Source of the DNA: Hevea brasiliensis
Taxonomy: Eukaryota; Streptophyta; Magnoliopsida; Malpighiales; Euphorbiaceae
Reading direction: 5' to 3'
Assembly: GCF_030052815.1 (NCBI RefSeq)
Contig: NC_079505.1
Coordinates: 28,598,843 to 28,662,842 of the forward strand
Length of the DNA stretch: 64,000 bases
Part shown: positions 11,753 to 61,950 of the stretch, piece after piece
Layout of the letters: every line of letters begins with the position of its first letter
Numbering within the stretch: position 1 is the stretch's first letter
The notes under the pieces: generated by a model
The model's input: the letters and a program-made list of their open reading frames with translations, nothing else
What the model was told of the DNA's origin: nothing
Database searches by the model: none
Made by a program: the position numbers and the translations under genes

Positions 11753-11760
11753 CACTAGAG

Positions 11761-20435: not shown

Positions 20436-20605
20436 TGTAACACCCTCACTGTAGCAATTCCATACATTCTACTATTCCAGTGATCGGTGTCAGTCCGGAC
20501 AACTAGAACGTCTGGAAAAATATTTAGACTAGAGTTATGAGCCATAAATAACTCAAATAATAATAAAAAAAATTTAGGAAAAATTTTAGAAATAAAATAC
20601 AACCA

Positions 20606-20652
20606 AGTTAAATGAGTCGGTGCCTTAGCGATGGGTAACCCAGTGGGAAGTT
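20606..20652 (+). promoter_or_regulatory. 5S rRNA-like block in F LTR
   Basis: AAGTTAAATGAG is followed by AGCGATGGGTAACC and GTGGGAAGT. It is the most divergent member of the set, yet box A-like and box C-like parts are kept at almost the same spacing. Confidence 0.45.
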
Positions 20653-24800: not shown

Positions 24801-25276
24801 AATTTTCATTTCTTCGATTTTATTGGACAGTTAGGTCAGGTGTCAGCTCTAGGGTAAATTGACCAAATTGCCCCTCGCTGGTTCAATCTGGTTTGCTCGT
24901 TATTCGATATTTCTTCTGGATCCCTGACCTAATTATTTGACCTACTTAACAATTCTTTTTCTTGATTTTCTCTTTTTCACTATGTTCGCAACAGTCCTAA
25001 GGACCGCAGCGTCATATTTTATGGTTCAAAATTTGAGTGTAGACTGACCTCACAGTCATTCCCGAGAAGGTCACCCATCGCTGTGACTCCTAGCTCATTT
25101 AACTTTTTGTGTTCTGTTTTTCTTATTTATACTTAACTATTTGGCAATTACTAATTGTTTATGTTCAGGGCTTATCTAGGTGTCTTAGATGTGGTTCTAA
25201 TTCTCTTAATTGTCCGAACCGACACCAGTCACCGGAATAGTAAAATATACTAGGCTATGCAAATAGGGGTGTTACA
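21828..25276 (-). mobile_element. Reversed B/C-type solo LTR inside F LTR
   Basis: On the minus strand it starts TGTAACACCCCTATTTGCAT (25276) and ends GGTAAGGTGTGACA (21828), 3449 bp, complete at both ends and without internal sequence. Flanks AAAAA (21823-21827) and GAAAA (25277-25281) are a probable TSD with one change. It carries the 5S-like block (25054-25105), donor-like AGGTAAGC near 24407 and the hairpin/acceptor pair near 22480-22530, all on the minus strand. Confidence 0.9.
25054..25105 (-). promoter_or_regulatory. 5S rRNA-like block in reversed B/C-type LTR
   Basis: On the minus strand AAGTTAAATGAGC is followed by AGCGATGGGTGACC and TTCTCGGGAATGAC, the best-kept box C of the C-type LTRs. 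Confidence 0.55.
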
Positions 25277-30140: not shown

Positions 30141-31537
30141 TGATTAGAACTAGGTTAAAATTACGTTCAAAATTTGGGGCACTAAGCTATCCAAAATCCA
30201 AACTCTTTAAAATTTATAAAGCTAGTTTGGGATGCATTAGACATTCATGTAATGAGTACTTGGCAATAATTAAGATGAGTATTGAAGTATTTTATTTGTT
30301 TATTTTCGATAGAGAAAGAGGTTGGGACAGACAAGGAGAAGTAAGTAAAGATAAAGGAGTTCATTGTAGGTTTGTGGACAACTAACCTTTTTCTTTGTTT
30401 TAACCTTGTAAATTGATTTGAAAGAGTTTATTTGAATGAGTTTGATTTGAATGAGTTTATTTTGAATGAGATATAGTTTTTCTCTTGCATTTGAGAAATT
30501 TGTGTGTTGCCACCCCTTTTATGGGTTTTATGATGATTTGAATATGTTTATTATTTTACAAATGTGATTATTGCTTCAGAAACTCTTGAAAATTGTTTTG
30601 AAACCACAGTTAGTATGATAGTCCCTTTGGAACTCCCCAGTAGTAATGGCTAGTTAGGGTTTGATATTTGATATGATTATGTCCCCCCATTAATAAAGGT
30701 TAGTGGGGTGAGACTATATGAGTACTCATTAGCTAGCTAGCCCTTCCCTCATTAATAACGGTTAGTGAGGTTGAGATTGCTTTATCGTGGTGTATAACGC
30801 GGCATTGATCATGAAATTTTGTGTCATAGTCTAAACTGTTTGTTGATATTGGCAACACTTATGCTTTGTGAAAGGTGATTTGTAAAGTATGATTTCTCAT
30901 TCGAAATGTGATTTCAATAAATGATTCTTATGGACTCAGAAAGTTTTGTGATGCTATCATGATTATGCAAATATATAATTTCTTGTATTTGGACAAGTTG
31001 TGTTTTACCTTAAGTTTTAAAGTTATTAGTTGTGCACCATTGAGTGATATATTCAGCGATAGTTTATTTATGCTGTCGCAAGTAAGGGAAAGGAGAAGGC
31101 TACCGAGTGAGAGACTTGGAAGCACCATTTAGGTTTTGATTAGAGGTATACATCATAGGTATACCCCTGTAATTTCCTTTTGATGTATTTTGTACCTATA
31201 TGTATGGATGTACGGACATTGAGCAGTTTTTATTTGAAAGCATTATATTGCTATTACATTTTGAGTTTGTAAATATTTGTATTTTATTTTGAGACTTATG
31301 GAAATATAACTTTTGTAATATTTAGTCTATCATTATTTCCAATAAATGTTTACCTTGAATTTTAACTATTCCCATGTAGTTTTCCATAAAAGAATTAATA
31401 AGATAAAAAGCTATAATTTATTTAAAATCCCTTGTAGCAGAATTAATGGGTTATCAGTAGGTGTAGTTCGATAATTCATTAGGTATGCTACGGGAATATA
31501 TCATGCCTTACAAGGGAATAGGTGTGACATGTTTTAG

Positions 31538-31814
31538 TGGTCCCTTAGGCAAATCCCACATCGGCAAAGCACGGAGATGGTCTTGGGTTCAAAAAGTAAT
31601 GATATATAAAATGGGAGAACTAATCACTAGAGGTGCCTTTTGATGGAATGGCTTGGAGAGTTGGAAGAACTCTAGGGTTAAGCGTGCTCGCTTAAAAGAA
31701 ATCCTAGGATGGGTGACCTCTCGAGGAAGTTCTCCATTCCACCTATGGGATAAAACCGTGAGGCTTACGGCCAAAGCGGATAATTCCTCTAGTGGTTGGA
31801 GCCCGATCGTTACA
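31538..31814 (+). mobile_element. Cassandra 5' LTR
   Basis: It begins TGGTCCCTTAGGC, includes ATCCCACATCGG and ends GCCCGATCGTTACA. It is followed one base later by the PBS. Same length as the second copy. Confidence 0.82.
31675..31732 (+). promoter_or_regulatory. 5S rRNA-like Pol III region, Cassandra 5' LTR
   Basis: GGGTTAAGCGTGC aligns with 5S box A and AGGATGGGTGACCTCTCGAG with box C. The distance from box A to box C equals that of plant 5S rRNA, unlike the shorter version in the gypsy LTRs. In Cassandra this region is known to resemble a Pol III internal promoter. Confidence 0.8.
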
Positions 31815-31815
31815 A

Positions 31816-31829
31816 TTGGTATCAAAGTC
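31816..31829 (+). other. Cassandra primer binding site
   Basis: TTGGTATCAAAGTC follows the 5' LTR and matches the initiator-Met tRNA PBS (TGGTATCAGAGC) with one change. Confidence 0.85.
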
Positions 31830-31885
31830 GCTCACGTGTCCTCTTGGGCGATGGTGGGGCAAACCTCAAAAAGGATGCTGAGTCT

Positions 31886-31901
31886 CGAAAGGGGGGGAGA
31901 A
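31886..31901 (+). other. Cassandra polypurine tract
   Basis: CGAAAGGGGGGGAGAA directly precedes the second LTR. Confidence 0.8.
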
Positions 31902-32178
31902 AGGTCCCTTTGGTACATCCCACATCGGCAAAGTATGGAGATAGTCTTGGGTTCAAAAAGTAATGATATATAAAATGGGAGAACTAATCACTAGAGGTGC
32001 CTTTTGGTGGAATGGCCTGGAGAGTTAGAAGAACTCCAGGGTTAAGCATGCTCGCTTAAAAGAAATCCTAGGATGGCTGACCTCCCAGGGAAGTTCTCCA
32101 CTTCACCTATGGGATAAAATTGTGAGGCTTATGGCCAAAGCGAACAATTCATCTAGTGGTTAGAGCCCGATCGTTAGA
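31902..32178 (+). mobile_element. Cassandra 3' LTR
   Basis: 277 bp. It differs from the 5' LTR at scattered positions, including the first base (A for T) and a G in the final TTACA. It carries the second 5S-like region (32039-32096), where one G of the box C core has changed (GATGGCTGACC). It ends directly before GGAGA, which matches the GGGGA on the far side of D2 at four of five bases. Confidence 0.82.
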
Positions 32179-38550: not shown

Positions 38551-39102
38551 TTAGTTGGTTTTCACCATGGCATTGCACTCTTTTAGATTGCTATACTTTG
38601 GGCAGTTCCTTTTCCAGTGCCCATCCTTCTGACAATGGAAACACTTTCCTTTGCCTCCATTAGCTTTACTCTTCCCTTTCTGTTTAGCTATTTTCTTAGA
38701 AGGACCAGGAATCTGAGGTTTCTTTTTCTTATTGCCCTTCTTCTTATTGGACTTTCCAGTAGAAGAAGATGCAATCAAAGTTACCTCTTTTCCTTTATTG
38801 CCCAGCATATTCTTTTGGGCAATAACCAGCATGTTGAGTAAACCAGCTAAGGTGCATTCCTATTTAGTCATGTGGAAATTTGTCACAAAATTCCCAAAAG
38901 ACTCAGGAAGGGATAAAAGGATCAAAATCCGTCTGTAGTTGGAAATCCATGTTGAAGTCAAGATGTTCCAACAGCTCAATCAGCCGAATCATCTTATGGA
39001 CATGATCCCCAACATTCTGTCCCTCAGACATTCTCATGCGGAACAACTGCCTAGATATCTCATACCTAGCATTCCTGCTGTGCTCACCATACAATTCTTG
39101 TA
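38551..39102 (-). pseudogene. Copia E gag, fused to pre-integrase by deletion, split by gypsy A
   Basis: It encodes MSEGQNVGDHVHKMIRLIEL, a Lys-rich segment and an intact zinc knuckle CFHCQKDGHWKRNC. Directly after the knuckle the frame runs PKYSNLKECNAMVKTN, which in the sister element lies about 455 bp further on. The protease and start of the pre-integrase are therefore missing. At its N-terminal side it is cut by the gypsy A insertion, resuming at 62602. Confidence 0.87.
39098..39102. repeat. TSD TTGTA of gypsy A (left)
   Basis: TTGTA precedes the gypsy A 5' LTR and recurs at 62597-62601. The joined sequence restores the copia gag seen at 15411-15450. Confidence 0.95.
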
Positions 39103-39277
39103 TGTAACACCCCTATGTTCGGTAGTGCGTTCTACTATTCCGGTGACCAGTGTTGTCTAGACAGCTAGGATGCCTAGAACTACATTTTTATATGAGGGAG
39201 GAGACATAAAATAATGAAATACAAGAAAAGAAAATACAAGAAAAACAAAGGAAAAATAATAGCAAAGAAAGGTAACC

Positions 39278-39328
39278 AAGTTAAGCGAGCCAAGAACCCT
39301 AGCGATGGGTGACCACACCGGGAAGTCA
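39278..39328 (+). promoter_or_regulatory. 5S rRNA-like block in gypsy A 5' LTR
   Basis: AAGTTAAGCGAGCC (box A-like) is followed by AGCGATGGGTGACC and CCGGGAAGTCACGG (box C-like). The box A core AAGTTAAGCG is identical to the plant 5S consensus. Confidence 0.6.
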
Positions 39329-39534
39329 CGGCGTGAACCGTTGACTGGCCCTGGACTGCGGGGAACCCTGGAAAATATTTTTAGGACTTAAAGAGACCCC
39401 TATTGAAGTATAAATATCATTAAAAATATCAAAGAAAAATTAATTAATTAATTAGTATATAGAAAAGTGAGAAATCGAAAAACAGACAAAACCCGGTGTT
39501 ACCGAAAAATCGGGAATGTAACCCGAACAGGGGC

Positions 39535-39539
39535 ATTGT
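39535..39539. repeat. TSD ATTGT of gypsy B (left)
   Basis: ATTGT recurs at 50966-50970. The intact target is seen at 59420-59424 in the 3' LTR of gypsy A. Confidence 0.95.
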
Positions 39540-39709
39540 TGTAACACCCCTAGTTGCATAGCCTGGTATATTTCACTTTACGGTGACCGGTGTCGGTCTG
39601 GACAATTAAGGAGATTAGAACCACACTCAATACAACTAGAAAAGCTATAAACACAAATAATTAGTAATGTCCAATTAGTTAAGTATAAACAAGAAAAATT
39701 GAACATAAG

Positions 39710-39760
39710 AAGTTAAACGAGCTGAGAGTCACAGCGATGGGTGACCTTCTCGGGAAGGAC
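39710..39760 (+). promoter_or_regulatory. 5S rRNA-like block in gypsy B 5' LTR
   Basis: AAGTTAAACGAGC, then GAGAGTCACAGC, then GATGGGTGACC, TTCTCGGGAAGGAC. The box C part differs from the plant 5S sequence by one substitution and one inserted base over about 20 nt; GAGAGT matches the start of the 5S intermediate element. Confidence 0.6.
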
Positions 39761-42500
39761 TGTGAAGTCATTTTAAACTCAAATTTCGAACCGTAAAAAG
39801 TGACGTTGCGGTCCTTAGGACCCTTATAAACATAGTGGAAAAGAGAAAATCACGAAAAAGATCTGTTAAGCCAGTCAAATAATTAGGTCAGGGAGCCGGA
39901 AGAAATATCAAATTAATTGCAAATCGGGATGAACCGGCGAGGGGCAATTTGGTCAATTGACCCCGAGAGCTGACTCCTGACCTAACTGTTAAATAAAATC
40001 GGAGAAAAGAAAATTTTGTAATTGAAAATTAAATTAAAGAACTAATAGAAAAATAGAAAAAAATAAAAAGAAAATGAAAAAAGGAAAAGTCAAAAGGTGA
40101 TGACATCATGCATGACCTCATGCATGATGCCATAAAGAATATAATTTATTTATTTATTTATTTACATTTTTGGTCTTCCATAAGACTTAAAAATTCATAA
40201 AAAAAAAAAAGAAAATCACTTCTTCTTCTTAAAAAAAAACGTTTTCATCTCTCTCTCACTTTTCTCTCTCAAGGTTCCTCCATTAACAAGCTTTTAAAGC
40301 TTGAAAAACTTAGTTCTTCCCCACAAGTTTCAACCCTAAACCCTAAAAAGCTTCTAAGTTACCCTAGAAAAGAAGATTAAAGAAGAATAGGAGGGAAGAA
40401 AAGTGAAGGAAAATAAAACTTGGCAATTCAAGAAAATTTGACAAGTGAGGTTAGTACTTGTTTCCCTTTCTTTTCTTCTTTAAGCTTTGAAATTAAGTTA
40501 AGATGAGTCTAAATTGCATGAAAAGTTAAAGAAAATGATAAGTTATGAAAGGACAAGAAATTTGGCAGCCATGAGGGTTGGGGGAAAGTGATATGTTTCA
40601 CTTCAATAAATCATGCATGCAAGTCAATCTAAGTGGGTAGGTGTTAGTGCCACACTTTAAATTGCATGAATGGAACAAATATGTGAATTAGGGTTTTGAA
40701 CATTAGGGTTTAGAGACCAAAAATGTGAAAAACTTGTAAATGGTGTCTTTGACCTAATGTGAAGTGAAAAATGGTCATTTTTGAGCAAATGAGGTGTGTT
40801 AGAAATGTTGGAATTAAAAGCCAATTCGGATTGGATAAGGTCATGTGCTGGCAGCATGACCAAAACCTCCTTTGAGGGACCAAAAATGAAATTTTACAAG
40901 TCCAATGGATATGGGACCAATTGGGGATGAAAATAGGCACTAAATGACACAATTTTCATTTAGGAAGCCTGCCCAAAAAGTGACTAAAACCTAGTGAACA
41001 AAGTGGCCGAAGTCGGAAAATCGCAGGCTGCCTCTGCACAAACTGACCAAATGAACAGTGTTTGTTCATTTGGTCATAACTCGAGCTAGGCAGGTCAAAA
41101 TGACCTGAAATTTTACCAGGGGTTAGATGAGATATAGATCTAAAACTTTCATGAAGAACACCAACCCAAATTATGCCATTAACCCAATCAAATTACTGAG
41201 CAAATTTGGTGACCTGAATCTGCAGAACTGCAGATTGCCATATGAACAGTAAAGTTTCAATGGCTATAACTCTCTCTAGAAAACTACGATTTAGGCGATT
41301 CTTGAACCGATGGAAACATAAGACATAGTAGAACATTTCATATGAAGAAAATTAGATCAAATTATGGACTTAACTTGATCAAATTACTGAATAAAGTTGG
41401 ATCAACAAATCTGCAGAACCAAATTCTGCAGCATGAATAGTAATAGTAATTTGCTTATAACTTGAGCTAAAAAACTCCAATTGGGGTGATTCAAAAAGAA
41501 GAATAAACTTAAGACAATAAGGAACATTTTCTATAAAGAAATTTTTACCAAATTCCAATAGTAAACTGACCAATGAAACAGTATAATTAAGGACACCAAA
41601 ACTGAAAATTTGGCAATTTTGCCTAAAAGACCTAAGTTTTGAGAAAATGACCAAAACCAACAAGTTTGGTGACCAAAATGTGGTATGTGGGTAAAGTTGG
41701 AATTCCCATACCTATTAATCCTTAGAAAGTCAATAATTTGACTTGAATAGTGCAGTGAATAGTAACCCGAAACACAAAATTTCAGGAACGTCGAAGTTAC
41801 CACGTTAGAGCTAGGTAAAAGTGAAATTAAATTTATTTTTGGATTTATGTTAAATTATGGTACTGAAACACTGTAAAATTGTGTGTTTCAGTTGAAAGGA
41901 ATACTGAGAAAGAACCCGAGGAATTAAGTCTAGGCCAAGAGGCGACTCGCTTGAGGTTTGTGCACAACGTATACTTTTTATAATCATCTTTTGCATACTG
42001 TTTTGAATAATGTCAAATATTGGATGATGGCTTTCTTATGATGTTTGATCTAAATTGTTGAAAGTTATTATGTATATTTGAAATGACAATGTTTAGTAAA
42101 TTGTTAAGATAAGTTTTGAAACCACAGTGTCATGACCATATATTTGAACACCTCACTAGCACGACTAGTGGGGGTAATTAGTTTCGAATTTTGATTCATT
42201 CTCTGGAGAAGTATTGAGGTGTGCCAGTAGAAGAGGATGTGAATGGATATCCATATATTTGAGCTAGCTAGCCTTGTGATGTGATTTCTCTTTAGCCTCC
42301 GGCTATTGAGATTCTATTTGTTTCGAATGGCATGATCTAACTGTGGGTTTTATGAAATGTGTTTTGACACTTTGAAATGAACTTGGTTTGCATTTAAAAT
42401 CTCATAATGCATGATTTGTACTTAATTCTCATGTTCAGCCAAATTTTTGAATAAATGTGATTTAAGTTTTGGATAAAGATTATTTTAGCATGTTGTGCAC

Positions 42501-42544
42501 CACTGAGTCCTAGTACTCAGCGATAGCTTTTATTGCTGTTGCAG
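42501..42544 (+). promoter_or_regulatory. Hairpin plus acceptor-like site in gypsy B 5' LTR
   Basis: CTGAGT (42503-42508) pairs with ACTCAG (42515-42520). TTTTATTGCTGTTGCAG follows, ending at 42544. With the donor-like site at 40450 it would define an intron of about 2.1 kb. No transcript evidence. Confidence 0.4.
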
Positions 42545-43122
42545 ATTTAGAGAATAGAGGAGCAGCAGACTGAGCTGCTAAGGTGTGAGGAGCTATCAGC
42601 TTAAAGTCATCGGGTATAATTTATACCCTAATTGTAAATATTTCTTTTGATGTATGTATTGCATATAAATGTATGGACATGTAAAAATGGGTCTTGAGCA
42701 GTTTGTGTAAAATTTGTATAAAGTTGTAATATATATTGTAATTTGAAAGTTGATAAATGTGTTGAGAAATTGATTGAGATTGAGTATGAAATTGAAGCAG
42801 TTGTTAAGAAAATTTTTTAGAAGTGCTTTTTATAGGTATATGAAGAACTGGTTTCTCAAAATACAGAGGGGAATCTGTCAAAATTTTTATAAAATTTCCA
42901 TAAAAATAAAATGGGCCAAAAATATTAACTAGTTTTAATTTTAACTAAATGTTTTAAGTACTTATTAGAAAATGCTCACCACTTGTCAAAAACAAGAAAA
43001 TTGTTTTAAAATCCCTTGTAGGGTACTTAATGAGTTATCGGTAGGTGAAGTTCGGTAGTTCATTAGGTATTCTACGGGATCATGTTATGCCTTATAGAGA
43101 GGTAAGGTGTGACATGTTTTAG

Positions 43123-43134
43123 TGGTATCAGAGC
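43123..43134 (+). other. Primer binding site of gypsy B
   Basis: TGGTATCAGAGC, exact complement of the initiator-Met tRNA 3' end, lies 8 bp after the 5' LTR (spacer TGTTTTAG). Confidence 0.93.
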
Positions 43135-43302
43135 AAATTTTTGAAGTATGTTTTAACCTATGAATTTGTGTCTTTCGTTGTTAAGTACAACTGCTCAATG
43201 TCCATAATTGTTACGTACAGTGCATTACATCATGAATATGAACTAACGGGGGGAAATCTCCATCTGTTATTTGTTCAGGTGATACCCTAACTTCAGATTG
43301 AA

Positions 43303-44213
43303 ATGGAAAAAGGGGATCGCTCGGTGAAGCGATCTTTGTTGAAGCCGAGGCACAAGAGGAAGCCCGGCTTTCTTGAATGTCGATGGGTCAAGAGCACCAC
43401 CACCAAATGTCGCGATTTCTGCCACGGTTTACCTGACATATGGCTGTGATGTTTCAACAAATGGCTGGGGGTATGCCTGTTCAAGCTCCACCCCAACCAC
43501 CTGTGGCGCACCTACTGCCTCCAGCCAGAGAGTATGATAAATTATTGAAGTATGGGGTTGCAGAATTTAAGGGTATAGTGGACCCTTTAGAGGCAGAGCA
43601 ATGGCTTGAAAGAATGGACAGAGTATTTAAGAAGCTGCACTGCCAAGATGAATTGAAGTTTGAATACTCTGTGTCGCTACTGCAAGGGGATGTGTATGAT
43701 TGGTGGAAGACCATCCCCCACAGCTTGGTTGAACCACCAGTGCTGACCTGGGATGACTTCATCAGAGAGTTCAGACAGAAATACATCCCAGATGCATATG
43801 TTGATCAAAAGTTACAAGAGTTTCTGAGTTTAAAACAAGGCAGCAGATCAGTGGTAGAGTATGAGAGGGAGTTCTCCCGCCTGAGTCACTATACGGGGAG
43901 TCTCCTTACTACCAGCAAGGCAAGGTGCAAGAGATTTGAGACGGGTTTGAAGCCCAGTATAAGGATGCAAGTTGTGGGATTTCGACACAGTAACTTCTCA
44001 GAGCTTATGTCTCAAGCACTTGAACTGGAGAGAATTGAATCAGAAGCAACCCCAGTGAAAGAAAAATCAAAAAAAGCTCAGAAATCAGAAAAAGACAAGG
44101 GGGAAAAATCAGTTGAACAGAGTTCTAGTGCTACCTCTGGAAAGAGAAAGAAATTTAGTGGACCCAGCAGGGGTCGAGGTGGAAGATTTGGTAGGGGCAG
44201 ATTTTTTGGATAG
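43303..44213 (+). pseudogene. Gypsy B gag
   Basis: The ATG at 43303 aligns with the gag start of gypsy A at 54364 (both begin ATGGAA) but loses frame before 43440. From 43440 a long open frame holds the retrotransposon Gag domain: EYDKLLKYGVAEFKGIVDPL, EQWLERMDRVFKKLHC, WWKTIPHSL and EFRQKYIPDAYVD. A basic Gly/Arg-rich end follows. A TAG at 44211-44213 stops it; the same frame continues into the zinc knuckle. Gag packages the RNA in cytoplasmic particles. Confidence 0.9.
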
Positions 44214-44549
44214 AGACCCCCTAGGTCTGGTCAACATTCGAGCAGGGGTTCACATTCTGCCCGCCGCTGTGAGACTTGTGGCAAGATTCATGGGGGGGAG
44301 TGTTATTGGGCCACTAGAGCCTGCTTTAACTGTGGAGGCAAGGGTCATTTAGCAAGAGACTGCACTAGTGCTCCGTCTTCGAGATATGGTCCAGCTCCTA
44401 CTACTGCCGAGGGATCTATTCAGAGTCCTGCTCCTAGAGGTTCACAGTCAGTTGGCAGAGGAAGAGGTAGAGGTAGAGGCACTACTTCAGGTAGTCAGGG
44501 CACAGTTGGTCAATCGGCACAAGGGAGTGCTTCAGTCAGGGTTTATTCA
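44214..44549 (+). pseudogene. Gypsy B gag zinc knuckles and linker
   Basis: In frame with gag after the TAG. It encodes CETCGKIHGGECYWATRACF and CGGKGHLARDC, two Cys/His zinc-binding motifs for RNA binding (about 44270-44365), then a GRGRGRG-rich linker leading to the protease. Confidence 0.85.
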
Positions 44550-45100
44550 ATGAGACAGCGAGAAGAGGCTGAGACTTCTGATGTGGTAGCTGGTACATTC
44601 TCTATCTCTGATCAAGAAGTATTTGTATTGTTTGATCTGGGTTCAACCCATTCATATGTTAGTGCTAGCATAGTCAGTTCACTTGCTGTTCCATGTGTGC
44701 AAATGGGTTTTGAAGTGCTAGTAACTAGTCCGTTAGGACAAGAGGTCCGGGTCAACAGAATTTATAGAGACTGTCCTTTGGTGATCCAAGGACATGTTTT
44801 CCTGTCAGACTTGATTGAAATGCCCTTCAGAGAGTATGATATCATCTTGGGCATGGATTGGTTAGCCAGGCATCACGCCATGATTGACTGTAGACTGAAG
44901 ACAGTCACTTTTGGTCTCCCTTTGTACGGTGATGTGCTAATACATGGGGAGAGGCATTTACTGCCATCAAACATCATTTCGGCTGCACTAGCCAGAATAA
45001 TGATCAGAAAGGGGTGTGAAGCATACTTGGCACATGTAATAGACACCCAAGTGGGGAGTCCAGCACTGAAAGACATCCCTACTGTATGTGACTTTTCGGA
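44550..45100 (+). pseudogene. Gypsy B aspartic protease
   Basis: It encodes VFVLFDLGSTHSYVSASIV with the D-x-G-S active site, and IILGMDWLARHHAMIDCR, the typical second half of the plant gypsy protease. It would cut Gag-Pol into its parts. The frame is open through this part and into the first RT residues (FSDVFPDELPGLPPEREV). Confidence 0.88.
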
Positions 45101-45944
45101 TGTATTTCCTGATGAATTGCCAGGATTACCTCCAGAAAGAGAGGTGCAGTTTGAAATTGATGTTATGCCTGGTGTGGACCCAATCTCCATAACACCATAT
45201 AGAATGGCACTAGCAGAATTGAAAGAGTTGAAAGTGCAATTACAAGAATTACTTGACAAGGGCTTTATCCGCCCTAGTGTGTAACCTTGGGGAGCGCCAG
45301 TGTTGTTTGTAAAGAAGAAAGATGGCACTCTCCGCTTGTGTATTGATTATCAGCAGTTGAACAAGGTGACAATAAAGAATAGATATCCATTGCCCCGCAT
45401 TGATGACTTGTTTGATCAGTTGAGGGGTGCAGCTGTGTTCTCCAAAATTGACCTAAGATCAGGTTATTATCAGCTGAAAGTACAAGAGCAAAGTATTCCT
45501 AAAATTGCCTTCAGAACCCGTTATGGCCATTATGAGTTCTTGGTCATGCCATTCGGGTTAACTAATGCTCCGGCTGCTTTTATGGATCTGATGAACACTA
45601 TTTTCAGACCATACCTCGACCAGTTTGTTGTGGTATTCATTGATGATATATTGGTCTATTCGAGGAATGCAGAAGAGCATGATAGACATCTGCGGATTGT
45701 ACTGCAGACTTTGAGGGAGAAACAGTTATATGCCAAATTGTCGAAGTGTGAATTTTGGCTGAAGGAAATATCTTTCTTGGGGCATGTAGTATCAGAAGAG
45801 GGCATTAAAGTAGATCCAAGTAAGATTGAAGCTGTCCTTAATTGGAGGCCACCCAGAAATGTCACAGAAATTCGTAGTTTTCTGGGTTTAGCTAGATACT
45901 ACTGTAGATTTGTGAAGGGATTCTCCATGTTGGCATCTCCATGA
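45101..45944 (+). pseudogene. Gypsy B reverse transcriptase, broken
   Basis: It carries [59 protein letters not shown] and the catalytic [13 protein letters not shown] at 45282-45284 replaces Ser (gypsy A has TCA at this site). The frame is lost near 45942 by one missing base just before the RNase H junction. Confidence 0.92.
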
Positions 45945-46513
45945 CCAAACTGCTTAGAAAAGATATAAAATTTCAGTGGACGGACAAATGCCAGCAGAGT
46001 TTTGATGAATTGAAGAGATGTTTGACTAAAGCTCCAGTCCTGACTTTACCTACTCCGGGTAAAGAATATACAGTATATAGTGATGCTTCTCACAATGGGT
46101 TAGGCTGTATGCAAGATCAAAATGTCATTGCCTATGCATCACGCCAGCTAAAACCGCATGAGAGGAATTATCCAACACATGATTTGGAGCTTGCAGCTAT
46201 TGTGTTTGCTCTTAAGATCTAGAGGCACTATTTGTATGGGGACAAGTGTTACATCTACACAGATCATAAGAGTTTAAAGTATTTGGGAACCCAGAAAGAG
46301 ATGAATTTGAGACAGAGGAGATGGTTAGAGTTGATAAAAGACTATGATTGTCTGATAGACTATCAGCCAGGAAAAGCTAATGTTGTGGCTGACGCCTTAA
46401 GTCGCAAGACTATGGCAAGTCTACAGGTTACTCCTTTGTCTTTGATACATGAGTTGAGATCATTACATGCCAGCTTAGAGATTAATGATGAGGGGCAGAC
46501 AGCAGTTGCATAA
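45941..46513 (+). pseudogene. Gypsy B RNase H, broken
   Basis: It encodes [56 protein letters not shown] and [11 protein letters not shown], the gypsy-type RNase H. Two codons are missing after GLGC. TAG at 46220-46222 and TAA at 46511-46513 both replace Trp by comparison with related copies. Confidence 0.9.
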
Positions 46514-46525
46514 CATGTACAGCCA

Positions 46526-47285
46526 GTGTTGATTGATCAAATTAGAATGGCCGCTCATAATGATCAGAAGTATCAGAAGCTGTTGGAAGAAGTCCGGCAG
46601 GGCAAGAAACCAGAATTCTCAATAAGAGATGATGGTCTACTGCTACACCAGGGCATAATATGTGTTCCTAATGATGTTGAATTGAGGAAGATCATTTTGA
46701 AGGAAGCACATAAGTCTCCTTTTGCCATGCACCCTGGTGGCACAAAAATGTATAGAGGGCTAAAGGAGCATTACTGGTGGATGGGTATGAAAAGAGATGT
46801 GGCAGAGTTTGTATCCAAATGCCTAACTTGTCAGCAAGTGAAGGCAGACCATCAAGTACCCACTGGGTTGTTACATCTACTACCAGTACCAGAATGGAAA
46901 TGGGAAAGAATAACAATGGATTTTGTAATGGGACTTCCAAGGACATTGAAGAGTCATGATGCAGTATGGGTCATTGTGGATAGACTGACCAAGTCTGCTC
47001 ATTTTCTGCCAGTCCGAATGGACTACAGTTTGGACAGATTGGCTAGGTTGTACATTGATGAGATTGTGAGACTGCATGGAGTGCCAGTATCCATCGTATC
47101 AGACAGAGATCCTAGGTTCACTTCTAGATTCTGGGGTAGTCTTCAGAGAGCCCTAGGAACTAGATTGAATTTCAAGATCGCATTCCACCCACGCAGACGG
47201 ATGGCGATGCGAAAGGGTAATTCAGATCTTGAATGACATGCTACGGGCTTGTGTGATTGAATTTGAAGGCAGTTAGGATACACAC
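46526..47285 (+). pseudogene. Gypsy B integrase, broken near the catalytic Glu
   Basis: The zinc-binding HHCC part reads [27 protein letters not shown] and [15 protein letters not shown]. The core shows [12 protein letters not shown] (first Asp) and [13 protein letters not shown] (second Asp). Around 47190-47215 the usual QTDGQSERV segment is frameshifted, so the catalytic Glu is not read in frame. The same lesion is present in gypsy A. Confidence 0.9.
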
Positions 47286-47960
47286 TTGCCTTTGATTGAG
47301 TTTGCTTACAACAACAACTACCAATCAAGCATTGGGATGCCTCCATATGAAGCTTTGTATGGCAGAAAATGTAGAACCCCGTTGTGTTGGGATGACGTGG
47401 GTGAAAGAAAGATGATTGGACCCGAAATTGTTCAGCACACTGAAGAGAAAATCAGGGTGATCCGAGATCGACTTAAGACTGCATCAGACCGTCAGAAGTC
47501 CTATATTGATTTGAAGAGAAAAGATATTGATTATGCAGTGGGTGAGAAATTTTTCCTCAAAGTTTCTCCTTGGAAGAGAATTATGAGATTCGGCAGAAAG
47601 GGGAAACTGAGTCCTCGCTTCATTGGGCCATATGAGGTTCTGGAAAGAGTGGGTCCTTTGGCATATCGTTTGGCACTACCTCCAGAGTTGGAGAAGATAC
47701 ATAATGTCTTCCATGTGTCTATGTTGAGGAGGTATCGATCAGACCCATCTCATGTACTACCAGTAGAAGAAATTGAAGTGAATCCAGACCTCACATATGA
47801 AGAAGAACTCATAGAGATTCTGGCTTATGAGGTGAAGCAGCTACGGAACAAGCAGATATCGTTGGTGAAAGTGTTGTGGAACCATCATTCGGGCTAGGAG
47901 GCTACTTGGGAACGTGAGGAGGACATGAGGAGACAGTACCCACAGCTGTTCAAAAATTGA
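47286..47960 (+). pseudogene. Gypsy B integrase C-terminus and chromodomain
   Basis: After the frameshift the frame is open: LIEFAYNNNYQSSIGMPPYE, DLKRKDIDYAVGEK (GPY/F-type region with RFIGPYEVLERVGPLAY), then VFHVSMLRRYRSDPSHVLPV and the chromodomain-like tail ILAYEVKQLRNK / LVKVLWNHHSG. TAG at 47895-47897 replaces Gln; the natural TGA stop is at 47958-47960. Confidence 0.9.
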
Positions 47961-47993
47961 TACCAGGTAAAATTTCGAGACGAAATTTATTTT

Positions 47994-48007
47994 AAGGGGG
48001 GGAGAAT
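47994..48007 (+). other. Polypurine tract of gypsy B
   Basis: AAGGGGGGGAGAAT lies directly before the 3' LTR start TGTAACACCCC. Confidence 0.9.
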
Positions 48008-50965
48008 TGTAACACCCCTAATTGCATAGTCTGGTATATTTCACTTTCCGGTGACTGTGTCGGTCCGGACAATTAAGGGGATTAGAACTACACTCAAGAC
48101 AACTAGAGAAGCTATAAACACAAATAATTAGTAATGTCCAATTAGTTAAGTATAAACAAGAAAAATAGAACATAAGAAGTTAAACGAGCCGAGAGTCACA
48201 GCGATGGGTGACATTCTCCGGAAGGACTGCGAAGTCATTTTAAACTCAAATTTCTAACCGTAAAAAGTGACGCTGCGGTCCTTAGGACCCTTATAAACAT
48301 AGTGGAAAAGAGAAAATCACGAAAAAGATCTGTTAAGCAAGTCAAATAATTAGGTCAGGGAGCCGGAAGAAATATGGAATTAATTGCAAACCGAGATGAA
48401 CCGGCGAGGGGCAATTTGGTCAATTGACCCCGAGACCTGACTCCTGACCTAACTGTCAAATAAAATCGGAGAAAAAAAAATTTTGTAATTGAAAATTAAA
48501 TTAAAGAACTAATAGAAATATAGAAAAAAAATAAAACGAAAATGAAAAAAGGAAAAGTCAAAAGGTGATGACATCATGCATGACCTCATGCATGATGCCA
48601 TAAAGAATATAATTAATTTATTTATTTATTTACATTTTTGGTCTTCCATAAGACTTAAAAATTCATAAAAAAAAAAAAAGAAAATCACTTCTTCTTCTTC
48701 AAAAAAAACGTTTTCATCTCTCTGTCACTTTTCTCTCCCAAGGTTCCTCCATTAACAAGCTTTTAAAGCTTGAAAAACTTAGTTCTTCCCCACAAGTTTC
48801 AACCCTAAACCCTAAAAAGCTTCTAAGTTACCCTAGAAAAGAAGATTAAAGAAGAATAGGAGGGAAGAAAAGTGAAGGAAAATAAAACTTGGCAATTCAA
48901 GAAAATTAGACAAGTGAGGTTAGTACTTGTTTCCCTTTCTTTTCTTCTTTAAGCTTTGAAATTAAGTTAAGATGAGTCTAAATTGCATGAAAAGTTAAAG
49001 GAAATGATAAGTTATGAAAGGACAAACAATTTGGCAGCCATGAGGGTTGGGGGAAAGTGATATGTTTCACTTCAATAAATCATGCATGCAAGTCAATCTA
49101 AGTGGGTAGGTGTTAGTGCCACACTTTAAATTGCATGAATGAAACAAATATGTGAATTAGGGTTTTGAACATTAGGGTTTAGAACATTTCATATGAAGAA
49201 AATTAGATCAAATTATGGACTTAACTTGATCAAATTACTGAATGAAGTTGGATCAACAAATCTGCAGAACCAAATTCTGTAGCATGAACAGTAATAGTAT
49301 TTTGCTTATAACTTGAGCTACAAAACTCCAATTGGGGTAATTCAAAAAGAAGAATAAACTTAAGACAATAAGGAACATTTTCTATGAAGAAAGTTTTACC
49401 AAATTTCAACAATAAACTGACCAATGAAACAGTACAATTAAGGACACCAAAATTGAAAATTTGGTAATTTTGCCTAAAAGACCTAAGTTTTGAGAAAATG
49501 ACCAAAACTAACAAGTTTAGTGACCAAAATGTGGTATGTGGGTAAAGTTGGAATTCCCATACCTATTAATCCTTAGAAAGTCAATAATTTGACTTGAATA
49601 GTGCAGTGAATAGTAACCCGAAACACAAAATTTCAGGAACGTCAAATTTAGCATGTTAGAGCTAGGTAAAAGTGAAGTTAAATTTATTTTTGGATTTATG
49701 TTAAATTATGGTACTGAAACACTGTAAAATTGTGTGTTTCAGTTGAAAGGAATACCGAGAAAGAACCCGAGGAATTGAGTCTAGGCCAAGAGGCGACTCG
49801 CTTGAGGTTTGTGCACAACGTATACTTTTTATAATCATCTTTTGCATACTGTTTTGAATAATGTGAAATATTGGATTATGGCATTCTTATGATGTTTGAT
49901 CTAAATTGTTGAAAGTTATTATGTATATTTGAAATGACAATGTTTAGCAAATTGTTAAGATAAGTTTTGAAACCACAGTGTCATGACCATATATTTGAAC
50001 ACCTCACTAGCATGACTAGTGGGGGTAATTAGTTTCGAATTTTGATTCCTTCTCTGGAGAAGTGTTGAGGTGTGCCAATAGAAGAGGATGTGAATGGATA
50101 TCCATATATTTGAGCTAGTTAGCCTTGTGATGTGATTTCTCTTTAGCCTCTGGCTATTGAGATTCTATTTGTTTCGAATGGCATGATCTAACTGTGGGTT
50201 TTATGAAATGTGTTTTGATACTTTGAAATGAACTTGGTTTGCATTTAAAATCTCATAATGCATGATTTGTACTTAATTCTCATGTTCAGCCAAATTTTTG
50301 AATAAATGTGATTTAAGTTTTGGATAAAGATTATTTTAGCATGTTGTACACCACTAAGTCCTATTACTCAGCGATTGCTTTTATTGCTGTTGCAGATTTA
50401 GAGAATAGAGGAGCAGCAGACTGAGCTGCTGAGGTGTGAGGAGCTATCAGCTTAAAGTCATCGGGTATAATTTATACGCTAATTGTAAATATTTCTTTTG
50501 ATGTATGTATTGCATATAAATGTATGGACATGTAAAAATGGGTCTTGAGCAGTTTGTATAAAATTTGTATAAATTTGTAATATATATTGTAATTTGAAAG
50601 TTGATAAATGTGTTGAGAAATTGATTGAGATTGAGTATGAAATTGAAGCAGTTGTTGAGAAAAATTTTTAGAAGTGCTTTTTATAGGTATTTGAAGAACT
50701 GGTTTCTCAAAATACAGAGGGAAATCTGTCAAAATTTTTATAAAATTTCCATAAAAATAAAATGGGCTAAAAATATTAACTAGTTTTAATTTTAACTAAA
50801 TGTTTTAAGTACTAATTAGAAAATGCTCACCACTTGTCAAAAACAAGAAAATTGTTTTAAAATCCCTTGTAGGGTACTTAATGAGTTATCGGTAGGTGAA
50901 GTTCGGTAGTTCATTAGATATTCTACGGGATCATGTTATGCCTTACAGAGGGGTAAGGTGTGACA
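48008..50965 (+). mobile_element. 3' LTR of gypsy B, with a 617-bp deletion
   Basis: 2958 bp against 3575 bp for the 5' LTR. The missing segment corresponds to about 40714-41331; at the join (about 49182) GGGTTTAGA runs straight into ACATTTCATATG. Otherwise the two LTRs differ at scattered bases. It keeps the 5S-like block (48177-48228, one change in GATGGGTGACA), donor-like GTTAGT (48919) and TGTTGCAG acceptor-like site (about 50397). Confidence 0.93.
48177..48228 (+). promoter_or_regulatory. 5S rRNA-like block in gypsy B 3' LTR
   Basis: AAGTTAAACGAGCC, GAGAGTCACAGC and GATGGGTGACATTCTC, GGAAGGAC; a slightly eroded copy of 39710-39760. Confidence 0.5.
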
Positions 50966-50970
50966 ATTGT
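50966..50970. repeat. TSD ATTGT of gypsy B (right)
   Basis: Partner of 39535-39539; the gypsy A LTR resumes with GGTCATTTGACACC. Confidence 0.95.
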
Positions 50971-51066
50971 GGTCATTTGACACCCCGATTTGTCTTTTGA
51001 CCTAAATGTCCATTAAAAATAAATAATATTACACTTGGAAAATATAATGAAAAATTAAATTGGTGG

Positions 51067-51074
51067 TATATAAA
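51067..51074 (+). promoter_or_regulatory. TATA-like box in gypsy A 5' LTR
   Basis: TATATAAA lies about 350 bp before the donor-like GTAAGT at 51421. Kept at 59521-59528 in the 3' LTR; the A1 LTR has a degraded form. Promoter role inferred. Confidence 0.35.
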
Positions 51075-54000
51075 GTAAATAGCAAAAATTATGGATTTAA
51101 TGTGGAATAAATGAAAATTAAACATATAAAATGAATTAAATTGTGTAAGTGGACCACTATGGAATAAATTAAGGACTAAATGGGCAGGTATACACCCATT
51201 ATACAATCTGCAACTTCATCTTCAAGCTTGGGATTCACCATGGCCGAATGAACTCCAACAAAACCTCCCATGGCCGCCCACCTTCAAACCTTAACAATTC
51301 CAAGATCAAGCCTTCTTTTCCCACACCTATCTTCATTAAAATTTATCCCCACATCACAAGGAAGAGTTTGATAACAATTTCAAGAAGTTTTAGTGAAGAT
51401 TTAACAAGTCCTAACAATAGGTAAGTTTGTATTTTTGAATATTTCTTTGTTAAAGTTTGTAAGCATGTTATGGGTGTTTGCTTTGTGAAGAAATTTTAAA
51501 GTTTGAGAAGTTATTGACACATCCAATTTCGGACAGCCATGGAGTTGTATATTTAATGAAATATTCATACATATATTTGATGGGAATTCATGTTGAGTAG
51601 GGTGATTTAATGTCCTAGTAAGTTAATCCCACATGTATATGGTGATTGTGCACTTGAAATGGAAGTTGACAAAATCATGGGAAACTTTGGCAATGGGGAG
51701 CATTTCGGCAGCCTTGGGACTTCTTGATGAATGTTTAAATTTATGAAGATATTGGGTGAATTGTGACATTGAGGATTGATGAATATGTATATAAATTGGT
51801 TGTGGAAATTGTATGTAATAATTAGGAGTGTTTATGTGTACATATTGTTTTATTTGGACTTTGTGAATTAGTGTTTCATTTGGTGTATCGAGGATATTGT
51901 ATTCTGCCCAAAGTGACTTTATTGTGAAGTGATAAATGGTTTTGGTAATATACCAAATCAGAAGTGGGAAGAGAAGTGGACTTATAGCAAGTAAATGTGC
52001 AATTGATAGATGTTAAGCAATATATTTAAGGACAGTATGCATTTTAGCCTATAACTTTAAGTGTGTGGCTCCAATTTGTATGAGACCAATTGGAGGTGAA
52101 ACTAGGCACAAAATGTGCCAATTTTCTTGAAGGAAGCATACCAAAATTCTGCTTGCAAGGTAGCTTGAAAAATGACCAAATCCGGATTAAGTGCAAGTGA
52201 GGCCTGAAAACTGACCATTGGGGCAGTAGTTAGTGTTTAGGCCATAACTCACTCAAAACAGGTCCAATTGACCTGAAATTTTAACCATGAATAGTTAAGA
52301 CCCATATCTACAAGTCTTATGAAGACACCAAAGCCCAAAAATGACCATAAGCAAGTCAAACAGCTTGCACAAATTCGGGTCCAAAAACTGGCCGAACCAA
52401 AGTTGACCAAAATTAACCTAAAATGACCAAATTTGATGCCATTTGACCAGCAATAGTAAAATGACCATAACTTGGTCGACATAACTCAGAATGACCTGAA
52501 ATTTTGCCCCGCGTTCCATAAGACATAGATCTATAAGTTTGTAGTTTTGACCGAAAACCGAGGGAACTAGGTCGTCCGACTAGTTCAAACTAGTATCCCG
52601 GAATCCAGCAAGTTGCAATAAAATGCACTAAACAAGGAAATGAAATTGGTAACATGTACCAACCCTAAAAGACTATCGAATGTGACATATTAGTAACACT
52701 AAAACCTAATTTACCTAGAACGCATTGAGGGTCGATATATTAGGTGATTAAGCAAATAATAGCTTTCAGTGAACTACTTATCAAGCATTATCGATAGAGA
52801 CAGTTTAATATAGTACTGAAACACTTCAAATTGTGTTTCTCAGTTTGTAAAGACTCAGGGAAAGGGAAGGAAACACTGAGTCGGACCAGAGACGATTATC
52901 GAGGTTTGTGCACTGTGACTATTTCTTTTGAATTATTTTCAGTTGAAATAAATTTTGACTATTTGTATATTATTGTTTTAAATTGTGAAACTGTGAAAAA
53001 ATGTTTGAATGATATTTGATGGATACTTGTTGATTGAAAAGCATTGTAAATGGTTTAAAACCATAGCTATCATGTATATTGATTGTATTCCTCGCTAGCT
53101 TGTCTAGTTGGACGAATTGAATTCTCTCTCTGGCTGAAGTATTGAGGTGTGTGCCTGTTGAGGACAAATTGGATAAGCACTCATATTTTTGCTAGCTAGC
53201 TATGTTATTCCTCATTAGTCATCGACTTTTGGGACGAATTGAATACCTCATTAGGCATCGGCTTTTGGGACGAATAGAACTTTGGAACATGATTAAGCTG
53301 TGTGTGATTTATTGATTTGTATTATGAGATTGTGAAATGGAGTTAAATCCTTATTGACATTTACTGTCTTTTGAAGTTAACTATGTTTTGATCTCTGAAA
53401 TTTATTGTGATATTGTGTTAAATTCCTTCTGACACTCATTGTCTTGAATTTAACTATGATTTTACATATCCATCACTAAAATGATTTATGAATTGTGATT
53501 TAAAGTTGTATTTGGTTAATGTTGTTGTGCCATCGAGACATTATCTCAAATGATAGCTTTCATAGCTGTCGCAGGTAGACAGACAGACAGGGCAGCAGAC
53601 TAGGCTGCTAGTACCTCTAGCGAGAGATTTTCAGGTATAACGAGTATACTACATTTTGCATTTTGTACTGTAATGTATGTTCACTGTATGTACATATTGT
53701 TTTTGATTTTGAGCAGTTGTAAATTCAAATTGTACCTTGAAGTTGTAAAATAATTATGAGTTATTTTGGCTTGTAAAAATTGTATTATATTTCTTGTATC
53801 GCAGTCTTTGAAAAATCACTGTGGATTTGAGTTGAGAAACATGTTGTGTTGAGAAATATGTTGGAGTTGAGATTTGGAAAAATATTGAAGTACTTTTTAC
53901 AGGTTTTCTGAAGAACTGTTTTATCCAAAATACAGATGGCACTCTGCCAAAATTTTTTTCAGAAATTCCAAATAATTCAAATGTGTTAGTTTTATCACTT

Positions 54001-54182
54001 CAGTTCAAAAAGGTTTTTAACACCTGTAAATAGTGCTCACCACTGTAAAAGAAGTAAGAAAAGTTTTTAAAATCCCTTGTAGTGTATTTAATGGGTTATC
54101 AGTAGACGGAGTTGGTAATTCATTAGGTATACTACGGGATCATGTTATGCCTTACAGAGGGGTAGGGTGTGACATGTTTTAG

Positions 54183-54194
54183 TGGTATCAGAGC
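54183..54194 (+). other. Primer binding site of gypsy A
   Basis: TGGTATCAGAGC, 8 bp after the 5' LTR, again matching initiator-Met tRNA. Confidence 0.93.
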
Positions 54195-58996: not shown

Positions 58997-59171
58997 TGTA
59001 ACACCCCTATGTTCGGTAGTGCGTTCTACTGTTTCGGTGACCAGTGTTGTCCGGACAGCTGGGATGCCTAGAACTACATTTTTATATGAGGGGGGAGACA
59101 TAAAATAATGAAATACAAGAAAAGAAAATACAAGAAAAACAAAGGAAAAATAATAGCAAAGAAAGGTAACC

Positions 59172-59222
59172 AAGTTAAGCGAGCCGAGAACCCTAGCGAT
59201 GGGTGACCGCAACGGGAAGTCA
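59172..59222 (+). promoter_or_regulatory. 5S rRNA-like block in gypsy A 3' LTR
   Basis: AAGTTAAGCGAGCC, then CCTAGCGATGGGTGACC and AACGGGAAGTCACGG. Box A core identical to 5S; box C core GATGGGTGACC identical; GGGAAGTC also kept. Confidence 0.6.
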
Positions 59223-61950
59223 CGGCGTGAACTGTTGGTAGCCTGGATCGGGAACCACGGAAAATATTTTTAGGACTTAAAGAGACCCCTATTGAAGTAT
59301 AAATATCATTAGAAATATCAAAGAAAAATTAATTAATTAGTACAAAGAAAAGTGAGAAATCGAAAAACGGACAAAACCCGGTGTTACCGAAAAATCGGGA
59401 ATGCAACCCGAACAGGGACATTGTGGTCATTTGACACCCCGAGTTGTCTTTTGACCTAAATGTCCATGAAAAATAAATAATATTACACTTGGAAAATATA
59501 ATGAAAAATTAAATTGGTGGTATATAAAGTAAATAGAAAAAATTATGGGTTTAATGTGGAATAAATGAAAATTAAACATATAAAATGAATTAAATTGTGT
59601 AAGTGGACCACTATGGAATAAATTAAGGACTAAATGGGCAGGTGTACACCCATTATACAATCTGCAACTTCATCTTCAAGCTTGGGATTCACCATGGCCG
59701 AATGAACTCCAACAAAACCTCCCATGGCCGCCCACCTTCAAACCTTAACAATTCCATGATCAAGCCTTCTTTTCCCACACCTCTCTTCATTAAAATTTAT
59801 CCCCACATGATAAGGAAGAGTTTGATAACAATTTCAAGAAGTTTTAGTGAGATTTAACAAGTCCTAACAATAGGTAAGTTTGTATTTTTGAATATTTCTT
59901 TATTAAAGTTTGTAAGCATGTTATGGGTGTTTGCTTTGTGAAGAAATTTTAAAGTTTGAGAAGTTATTGACATATCCAACTTTGGACAGCCATGGAGTTG
60001 TATATTTAATGAAATATTCATACATATATTTGATGGGAATTCATGTTGAGTAGGGTGATTTAATGTCCTAGTAAGTTAATCCCACATGTATATGGTGGTT
60101 GTGCATTTGAAATGGAAGTTGACGAAATCATGGGAAACTTTGGCAATGGGGAGCATTTCGGCAGCCTTGGGACTTCTTGAGGAATGTTTAAATTCATGAA
60201 GATATTGGGTGAATTGTGACATTGAGGATTGATGAATATGTATATAAATTGGTTTTGGAAATTGTATGTAATAATTAGGAGTGTTTATGTGTACATATTG
60301 TTTTATTTGGACTTTGTGAATTAGTGTTTCATTTGGTGTATTGAGGATATTGTATTCTGCCCAAAGTGACTTTATTGTGAAGTGATAAATGGTTTTGGTA
60401 ATATACCAAATCAGAAGTGGGAAGAGAAGTGGACTTATAGTAAGTAAATGTTCAATTGATAGATGTTAAGCAATGTATTTAAGGACAGTATGCATTTTAG
60501 CCTATAACTTTAAGTGTGTGGCTCCAATTGGTACAAGACCAATTGGAGGTGAAACTAGGCACAAAATGTGCCAATTTTCATGAAGGAAGCATACCAAAAT
60601 TCTGCTTGCAAGGTAGCTTGAAAAATGACCAAATCCGTATTAAGTGCAAGTGAGGCCTGAAAACTGACCATTTGGGCAGTAGTTAGTATTTAGGCCACAA
60701 ATCACTCAGAACAGGTCCAATTGACCTGAAATTTTAACCATGAATAGTTCAGACCCATATCTACAAGTCTTATGAAGACACCAAAGCCCAGAAATGAACA
60801 TAAGCAAGTCAAACAGCTTGCACAAATTCGGGTCCAAAAACTGGCCGAACCAAAGTTGACCAAAATTGACCTAAAATGACCAAATTTGATACCATTTGAC
60901 CAGCAATAGTAAAATGACTATAACTTGGTCTACATAACTCAGAATGACCTGATATTTTGCCCCGCGTTCCATAAGACATAGATCTACAAGTTTGTAGTTT
61001 TGATCGAAAATCGAGGGAACTAGGTCATCCGAATAGGTCAAACTAGTATCCCGGAATCCAGCAAGTTGCAATAAAATGCACTAAACAAGGAAATGAAATT
61101 GGTAACATGTACCAACCCTAAAAGATTATCGAATGTGACATATTAGTAACACTAAAACCTAATTTACCTAGAACGCATCGAGGGTCGATATATTAGGTGA
61201 TTAAGCAAATAATAGCTTTCAGTGAACTACTTATCAAGCATTATCGATAAAGACAGTTTAATTTAGTACTGAAACACTTCAAATTATGTTTCTCAGTTAG
61301 TAAAGACTCAGGGAAAGGGAAGCAAACACGAGTCGGACAGAGAGACGATTATCGAGGTTTGTGCACTGACTATTTCTTTTGAATTATTTTCAATTAAAAT
61401 AAATTTTGACTATTTGTATATTATTGTTTGAATGATATTTGATGGATACTTATTGATTGAAAAGCACTGTAAATGGTTTGAAACCACAACTATCCTGTAT
61501 ATTGATTGTATTCCTCGCTAGCTTGTCTAGTGGGATGAATTGAATTCCCTCTCTGGCTGAAGTGTTGAGGTGTGTGCTTGTTGAGGACGAATTGGATGAG
61601 TACTCATATTTTTGCTAGCTAGCTATGTTATTCCTCATTAGTCATCAACTTTTGCAAAGAATTGAATACCTCATTAGCCATCGGCTTTTGGGACGAATTG
61701 AACTTTGGAACATGATTAAGCTGTGTCTGATTTATTGATTTGTATTATGAGATTGTGAAATGGAGTTAAATCCTTATTGACATTTACTGTCTTTTGAAGT
61801 TAACTATGTTTTGATCTCAGAAATTTATTGTGATATTGTGTTAAATTCCTTCTGACACTCATTGTCTTGAATTTAACTATGATTTTACATATCCATCATT
61901 TAAATGATTTATGAATTGTGATTTAAAGTTGTATTTGGTTAATGTTGTGC

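Follow-up and report, generated by a model that had tools for sequence, protein, structure and literature searches.

The core of the 5S rRNA gene has been discussed as a module that non-autonomous elements can acquire (available passages of PMC10853983). One known carrier is Cassandra, in whose long terminal repeats (LTRs) the 5S boxes were placed 18 nt apart and whose partners were given as unknown (available passages of PMC7215508), and the accessible portions of PMC4717578 describe 5S sequence in no TRIM family besides Cassandra. The excerpts of PMC10886601 available to us argue that autonomous partners require Pol II and that extended LTR sequence is probably not common to them and the TRIMs; they also describe the partner that mobilises Cassandra as being without indication.

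The window, by which we mean the whole 64,000-nt stretch of DNA that was analysed, contains a Cassandra element of its own. The initial annotation had placed it there with full 5S spacing, and we found it as described:

31538-32178, plus strand: Cassandra TRIM, separate from the gypsy elements, with a 44-nt span from box A to box C

Nine further 5S-like blocks lie within gypsy LTRs of the same window. As an observation on sequence, the resemblance of this block to a 5S internal control region with a shortened middle is confirmed. The best explanation that we can offer overall, which we hold tentatively and at a little short of even confidence, is that the block is a captured 5S-type module that may act as a DNA docking site for a TFIIIA-type factor.

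Blocks and host elements in the window

All nine blocks reported by the initial annotation were recovered in the sequence (9/9) by pattern matching of box A plus box C. They are the following:

476-512, plus strand: 5S-like block in LTR A (LTR start 301), at LTR position 176
5675-5710, minus strand: 5S-like block of 36 nt in the LTR starting at 5886, at LTR position 177
6372-6408, plus strand: 5S-like block in LTR C (LTR start 6201), at LTR position 172, one change in box C
20605-20640, plus strand: 5S-like block of 36 nt in LTR E (LTR start 20436), at LTR position 170, one change in box C
25069-25105, minus strand: 5S-like block in LTR C (LTR start 25276), at LTR position 172
39278-39314, plus strand: 5S-like block in the 5' LTR of element 2, at LTR position 176
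39710-39746, plus strand: 5S-like block in the 5' LTR of element 1 (the block of the original finding), at LTR position 171, aligned to nt 48-102 of the genome's own 5S gene with a score of 37
48177-48213, plus strand: 5S-like block in the 3' LTR of element 1, at LTR position 170, one change in box C
59172-59208, plus strand: 5S-like block in the 3' LTR of element 2, at LTR position 176

Six of the start coordinates given earlier were exact, whereas 5661 and 25054 proved to be the far ends of blocks on the minus strand and 20606 was off by one. The blocks began 170-177 bases from the first base of the LTR in 9/9 cases, which agrees with the depth of about 170-180 bp first proposed, and the window LTRs that hold a block begin with TGTAACACCC. 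Counted from the first base of box A through the last base of box C, the block was 36 or 37 nt long in the nine window copies, and its span was 36-38 nt among 57 copies (48 chosen by motif plus the nine of the window). Box C carried one change in three of the nine window blocks (at 6398, 20630 and 48203). The distance from the start of box A to the start of box C, for which 26 nt had been claimed, was indeed 26 nt in seven of the nine blocks but 25 nt in the other two. The corresponding distance in the genome's own 5S genes, where the box A to box C span is 44 nt, was 33 nt; the gap in the gypsy block is thus 7 or 8 nt shorter, and the shortening of about 7 nt originally described was borne out.

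The nine blocks represent at most seven insertions, because those at 39278 and 59172 belong to the same element and those at 39710 and 48177 to a second element nested in it. The features of these two hosts are as follows:

39103-62596, plus strand: element 2, with target-site duplication TTGTA at 39098-39102 and 62597-62601
39103-39539 and 50971-54174, plus strand: 5' LTR of element 2, split by element 1
54183-54194, plus strand: primer-binding site TGGTATCAGAGC of element 2
58997-62596, plus strand: 3' LTR of element 2, 3.3% mismatches to its own 5' LTR
39540-50965, plus strand: element 1, nested in the 5' LTR of element 2, with target-site duplication ATTGT at 39535-39539 and 50966-50970
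39540-43114, plus strand: 5' LTR of element 1
43123-43134, plus strand: primer-binding site TGGTATCAGAGC of element 1, after an 8-nt spacer
43437-47897, plus strand: gag-pol region of element 1, in separate open stretches
43437-44213, plus strand: gag of element 1
44214-45284, plus strand: zinc knuckle and protease of element 1
45285-45944, plus strand: reverse transcriptase of element 1
46514-47236 and 47277-47897, plus strand: integrase pieces of element 1
48008-50965, plus strand: 3' LTR of element 1, 2.9% mismatches to its own 5' LTR

Both elements are young, and all four of their LTRs hold the block. Between the LTRs, the reading frames are interrupted and contain domains of gag, zinc knuckle, RVP_2 protease, RVT_1, RNase H and integrase type, and one of the two integrase ends gave a weak match to Chromo (PF00385, E 0.0025, below the cut-off). 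The length and type of their LTRs make both elements candidate members of the Tekay/Del lineage. The same 8-nt spacer, TGTTTTAG, separates the LTR end from the primer-binding site at 43115-43122 and at 54175-54182. The primer-binding site itself also occurs in a Copia element of the window, and hence is not diagnostic.

Other arrangements were seen elsewhere in the window. A gypsy LTR at 301-3854 meets, 3' side to 3' side, an oppositely oriented LTR at 5886-3855 that belongs to its family and is shortened at the 3' side. Inspection by eye further suggested that a minus-strand Copia element (9634-19400) interrupts the gypsy LTR starting at 6201 within its final bases, because the missing end of that LTR reappears beyond 19400. 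When two Copia LTRs of the window were compared with 5S on either strand, they scored 17-22 (shuffles: mean 17.4, maximum 31), and these two were rejected as carriers of the block on account of their shuffle-like scores.

Each box alone, with up to two mismatches allowed, matched the window at close to chance frequency (14 matches versus 9.3 expected for one box, and 34 versus 28.2 for the other), so that significance rests on the pair of boxes. When the two exact boxes were required to be 12-22 nt apart, the pair was found at 18,404 + 18,196 = 36,600 places in the 1.88-Gb assembly; a reversed two-box control pattern gave 0 matches in the same assembly. By their flanks, 91 copies split into two superfamilies, B/C (58 copies) and A/F/E (33 copies).

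The first rival to the docking-site explanation is that the block is a true type-1 Pol III promoter. A short RNA would then start roughly 48 nt upstream, near LTR position 123, would end at the first run of T, and would serve the element as a decoy, a primer or a regulator. In keeping with this, box A, box C and the tail stand in 5S order and in sense orientation, and the first run of four T residues falls nearer than it does at control points (median 99 nt after the start of box A versus 183, and at most 120 nt in 64 of 91 copies), although kinship of the copies makes this figure non-independent. Runs of five T residues, however, were not enriched downstream (median 439 versus 371 at control points, 91 copies). 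The 7-8 nt missing from the spacer also count against a working promoter: Cassandra holds 44 nt in all 38 of the cores examined, and its spacing seems mandatory according to the available passages of PMC10853983. We therefore regard such a promoter as unlikely. Synthesis of the genomic RNA by Pol III is unlikely as well, since the run of four T residues arrives at a median of 99 nt past box A. Of the original interpretation, the presence of a 5S-like segment in several gypsy LTR families is supported; a working Pol III promoter would be putative at most.

Likeness of the block to the 5S rRNA gene

We sampled LTRs by their purine tract and LTR start, and not by the block; this combination had 15,706 exact places genome-wide. 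The first 55 of 100 places listed were taken, of which 15 were scored by the coordinates of the exact block and 40 were fetched. The block was present in 49 of the 55 LTRs, comprising the 15 scored by coordinates and 34 of the 40 fetched. With up to three changes per box allowed, the rate of 34/40 in fetched LTRs compared with 34/4,000 in dinucleotide shuffles. Five of the six misses held decayed blocks when judged by eye, and one LTR (L066) held none.

One of the genome's own 5S genes (at least 47 matches of 109-110 bits, 46 of them on C16) served as the reference. Local alignment of the 40 motif-independent LTRs to this reference gave a median score of 27.5, compared with 17.2 ± 2.1 and a maximum of 30 for shuffles. 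The best 5S match started at LTR positions 150-230 in 39 of the 40 LTRs; with each of 60 decoys in place of 5S, 2.1 of the 40 LTRs did so on average and never more than 9. Among the 57 copies that were chosen by motif or lay in the window, the best 5S match overlapped the block in 56, and the remaining copy (39278) matched the block of the nested element instead. Individually, 35 of these 57 copies scored no higher against 5S than the best of 5,700 shuffles. Taken together, the motif-independent LTRs did score better than shuffled LTRs, the comparison that the initial annotation had put forward as able to overturn the 5S link. Chance origin was ruled out by the genome-wide pair counts, the shuffle comparison and the decoy position test.

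The covariance model RF00001 found no match in the window, either at the gathering score or at E values up to 10, and this included Cassandra. Because even Cassandra was missed, we consider the Rfam 5S model insensitive to promoter fragments.

A second rival to the captured-module explanation is convergence, in which an unrelated conserved Pol II control motif came to resemble 5S by accident. A blind profile search, run with 27 + 7 motif-independent LTRs against 6.4 Mb of shuffles plus the targets, leaves some room for this. For superfamily B/C, 5S was the top match (E 0.16); for A/F/E, one shuffle (0.11) ranked above Cassandra (0.22) and 5S (0.65). The support from this search for a 5S likeness thus appears marginal, and because it puts a shuffle above 5S, the case for A/F/E leans on the likeness of this superfamily to B/C. 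Four of 301 decoy pieces also reached the mean 5S score. In addition, 52/58 copies of B/C have a TATA[A/T] motif 16-31 nt ahead of box A, which fits Pol II, and 0/33 copies of A/F/E have one there; because its position is confined to B/C, no common start site can be assigned.

Against convergence stand three or four colinear 5S segments. The best alignments extend from 5S nt 39 to about nt 104, with a 5-nt gap following box A and a 3-nt gap ahead of box C. The GGGAAG tail that had been claimed after box C was found with at most one mismatch in 80/91 copies and in 25/34 motif-independent ones, compared with 2.5% of shuffles; importantly, this tail lies outside both boxes and played no part in the selection of copies. 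The motif CGAGAG, which from its coordinates we take to be the intermediate element of a type-1 promoter, was exact in 41/58 copies of superfamily B/C and in 0/33 of A/F/E. We judge accidental resemblance to be improbable, and descent of the block from a 5S-type sequence, as opposed to convergence, to be likely.

Conservation, descent and predicted function

In the five LTRs of the window that were aligned, no 40-nt stretch in the first 2.2 kb was better conserved than the block (0.81 versus a mean of 0.48); higher peaks exist in this alignment further 3' than 2.2 kb. Across the 91 copies, 751 pairs with flank identity below 0.55 gave a block identity of 0.73-0.75, a value that is inflated because 48 of the 91 copies were chosen by exact motif. 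In the motif-independent sample, 346 poorly matching pairs showed an identity of 0.59 at LTR positions 156-215, compared with 0.53-0.55 in the neighbouring stretches and 0.65 at the LTR start. When the block was aligned on itself (194 pairs from 34 LTRs with poor flanks), identity was 0.69 versus 0.46-0.58 in four neighbouring pieces. Comparison of these sequences suggests that conservation of the block above its surroundings is real but moderate.

These values bear on a third rival, that the block is a neutral remnant, left by an inserted 5S or Cassandra sequence and without function. The deletion in the spacer, the absence of CGAGAG from A/F/E and the modest peak in windows set by position (0.59 versus 0.53-0.55) would all fit a relic. 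The peak of 0.81 versus 0.48 in the window LTRs and the value of 0.69 versus 0.46-0.58 for the block aligned on itself would not, and we consider a functionless relic quite improbable. Selection on the block at the DNA level seems rather likely.

Position 59 of 5S, which is T in the genome's own 5S genes and in Cassandra, was A in 34/34 motif-independent copies and in 9/9 window copies; in the other 48 copies this A was forced by the search pattern. GC stood ahead of GATGG in 73/91 copies. The common A at position 59, the GC before GATGG and the short spacer suggest one capture, and we think it probable that an ancestor of these gypsy elements took up the module a single time. As for the donor, 5S outscored Cassandra in 46/58 copies of B/C and in 7/33 copies of A/F/E, so that these scores favour neither a 5S gene nor Cassandra as the donor across both superfamilies. 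Two two-box patterns had no exact match in IMG/VR, and for relatives by reverse transcriptase in that collection there were 13 pattern matches, none of which was confirmed. Searches with the reverse transcriptase and with the Copia integrase gave at least 120 matches each; those with a named source came mostly from eudicots, and three bacterial names appeared in the integrase set.

That the block instead works as RNA, as a packaging or dimerisation hairpin, is very improbable: folding predicts an upstream pairing partner for the GTGAC in box C in 46/58 copies of B/C, with a median folding-energy z of -1.2, but in A/F/E such pairing is predicted in 4/33 copies and the median z of 0.0 is shuffle-like, so that a hairpin as a basis common to both superfamilies is disfavoured by the A/F/E folding.

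A DNA site is favoured because the RNA fold is not common to both superfamilies. In the docking-site explanation, an ancestor of these gypsy elements would have captured a 5S-type sequence once, and the block would since have worked as DNA, as a predicted docking site for a TFIIIA-type factor. The docked factor would then help to hold the LTR open and transcribed, through recruitment or through opening of chromatin. The main contact of TFIIIA is box C, so a shortened spacer could be tolerated. Binding of TFIIIA to the block is a prediction that we make with some doubt.

Cassandra fusions and comparison with known systems

We fetched 20 Cassandra loci, among them the window copy (L099), for inspection of their junctions. 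At four of the 20, Cassandra directly followed a gypsy LTR end and its 8-nt spacer, the latter complete or nearly so (L099, at window positions 31519-31540; L102, L107 and L117), and at two of the 20 it directly followed an inverted gypsy LTR start (L111 and L113). Unlike these six terminus-joined loci, L108 had Cassandra at a random LTR position. The joins between Cassandra and gypsy termini could reflect end joining of cDNA or a target preference.

A different kind of junction was seen in L106 (1094-1775), where a B-type LTR with its spacer and primer-binding site is continued by the Cassandra internal part and then the 3' LTR. Similar fusions to Cassandra were present in L103 (the same place as L132) and L115, with other LTR ends that looked gypsy-like by eye, and in L138 the sequence beyond a gypsy-type LTR end, spacer and primer-binding site is the beginning of a related TRIM. 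The junction TTTAG-TGGTATCAGAGC-CGCTC occurred at 118 places genome-wide, and all places with TGGTATCAGAGC-CGCTC numbered 3,478. A sample of 20 of these 3,478 comprised three Cassandra loci, two fusions and 15 loci of a second abundant TRIM family that has a Cassandra-like LTR end and primer-binding site (L120-L122, L124-L131 and L133-L136). Strand transfer between molecules packaged in the same particle would produce fusions of this kind, which suggests co-reverse-transcription and a gypsy helper for Cassandra, in a count that covers only the gypsy-type donor junction and is uncontrolled for donor abundance.

The genome's own 5S genes (L009-L018) mostly carried GTTAAACGTGC and CTAAGATGG, and the Cassandra cores (L099-L118) mostly carried GTTAAGCGTGC and CTAGGATGG. 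Judged from these motifs, Cassandra apparently did not follow the change in the host 5S genes here.

A broader proposal would join several of these points. A chromodomain gypsy lineage of autonomous type would run on a compressed 5S promoter of box A, intermediate element and box C near the start of its LTR. With TFIIIA, and perhaps Pol III, drawn to LTRs numbering in the tens of thousands per genome, it would titrate the 5S machinery, and it would act as the helper of Cassandra by reverse-transcribing it in shared particles. Taken as a whole, we think this proposal improbable.

Among the papers listed by full-text literature searches, the titles, abstract openings and passages covered contained no report of a 5S block in the LTRs of coding gypsy elements. 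Del/Tekay chromoviruses resemble the hosts described here in having gag-pol with protease, reverse transcriptase, RNase H and integrase, long LTRs and a chromodomain, to which one of the two integrase ends in the hosts has a weak match (available parts of PMC4029996 and PMC3605345). The main text of PMC4029996, a paper on Del LTRs, contains neither '5S rRNA' nor 'polymerase III', and in the available text of PMC3605345 '5S rRNA' occurs only in a reference and 'Pol III' does not occur.

The internal control region of the 5S gene shares with the gypsy block the order of box A, box C and GGGAAG, and most B/C copies have CGAGAG as well. The block differs from the gene in being 7-8 nt shorter, in its changed position 59 and in having no match to RF00001. 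Pol III promoters are also present in TRIMs such as Ajax, and the likeness to the gypsy block is confined to a 5S promoter part (box A, intermediate element and box C) in the LTR; Ajax is a TRIM from two nemerteans, unlike the coding gypsy hosts found here (Kojima 2024, available passages of PMC10886601). Cassandra and the gypsy LTRs both hold a 5S box A and box C in sense orientation, and both elements use the primer-binding site TGGTATCAGAGC. In contrast, Cassandra is about 640 nt long here and non-coding, whereas the gypsy hosts have gag-pol and LTRs of about 3-3.6 kb; the span is 44 nt in Cassandra (38/38 cores examined) and 36-38 nt in the gypsy blocks (57 copies).

If coding elements carry tens of thousands of 5S modules, 5S factors may meet far more sites in LTRs than in 5S genes, and the presence of the module in such elements ties 5S control to retrotransposon activity and to Cassandra in a way that can be tested. 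5S promoters in small non-coding LTR elements such as Cassandra and Ajax were already known; to our knowledge, a 5S-type module in the LTRs of protein-coding gypsy elements is new.
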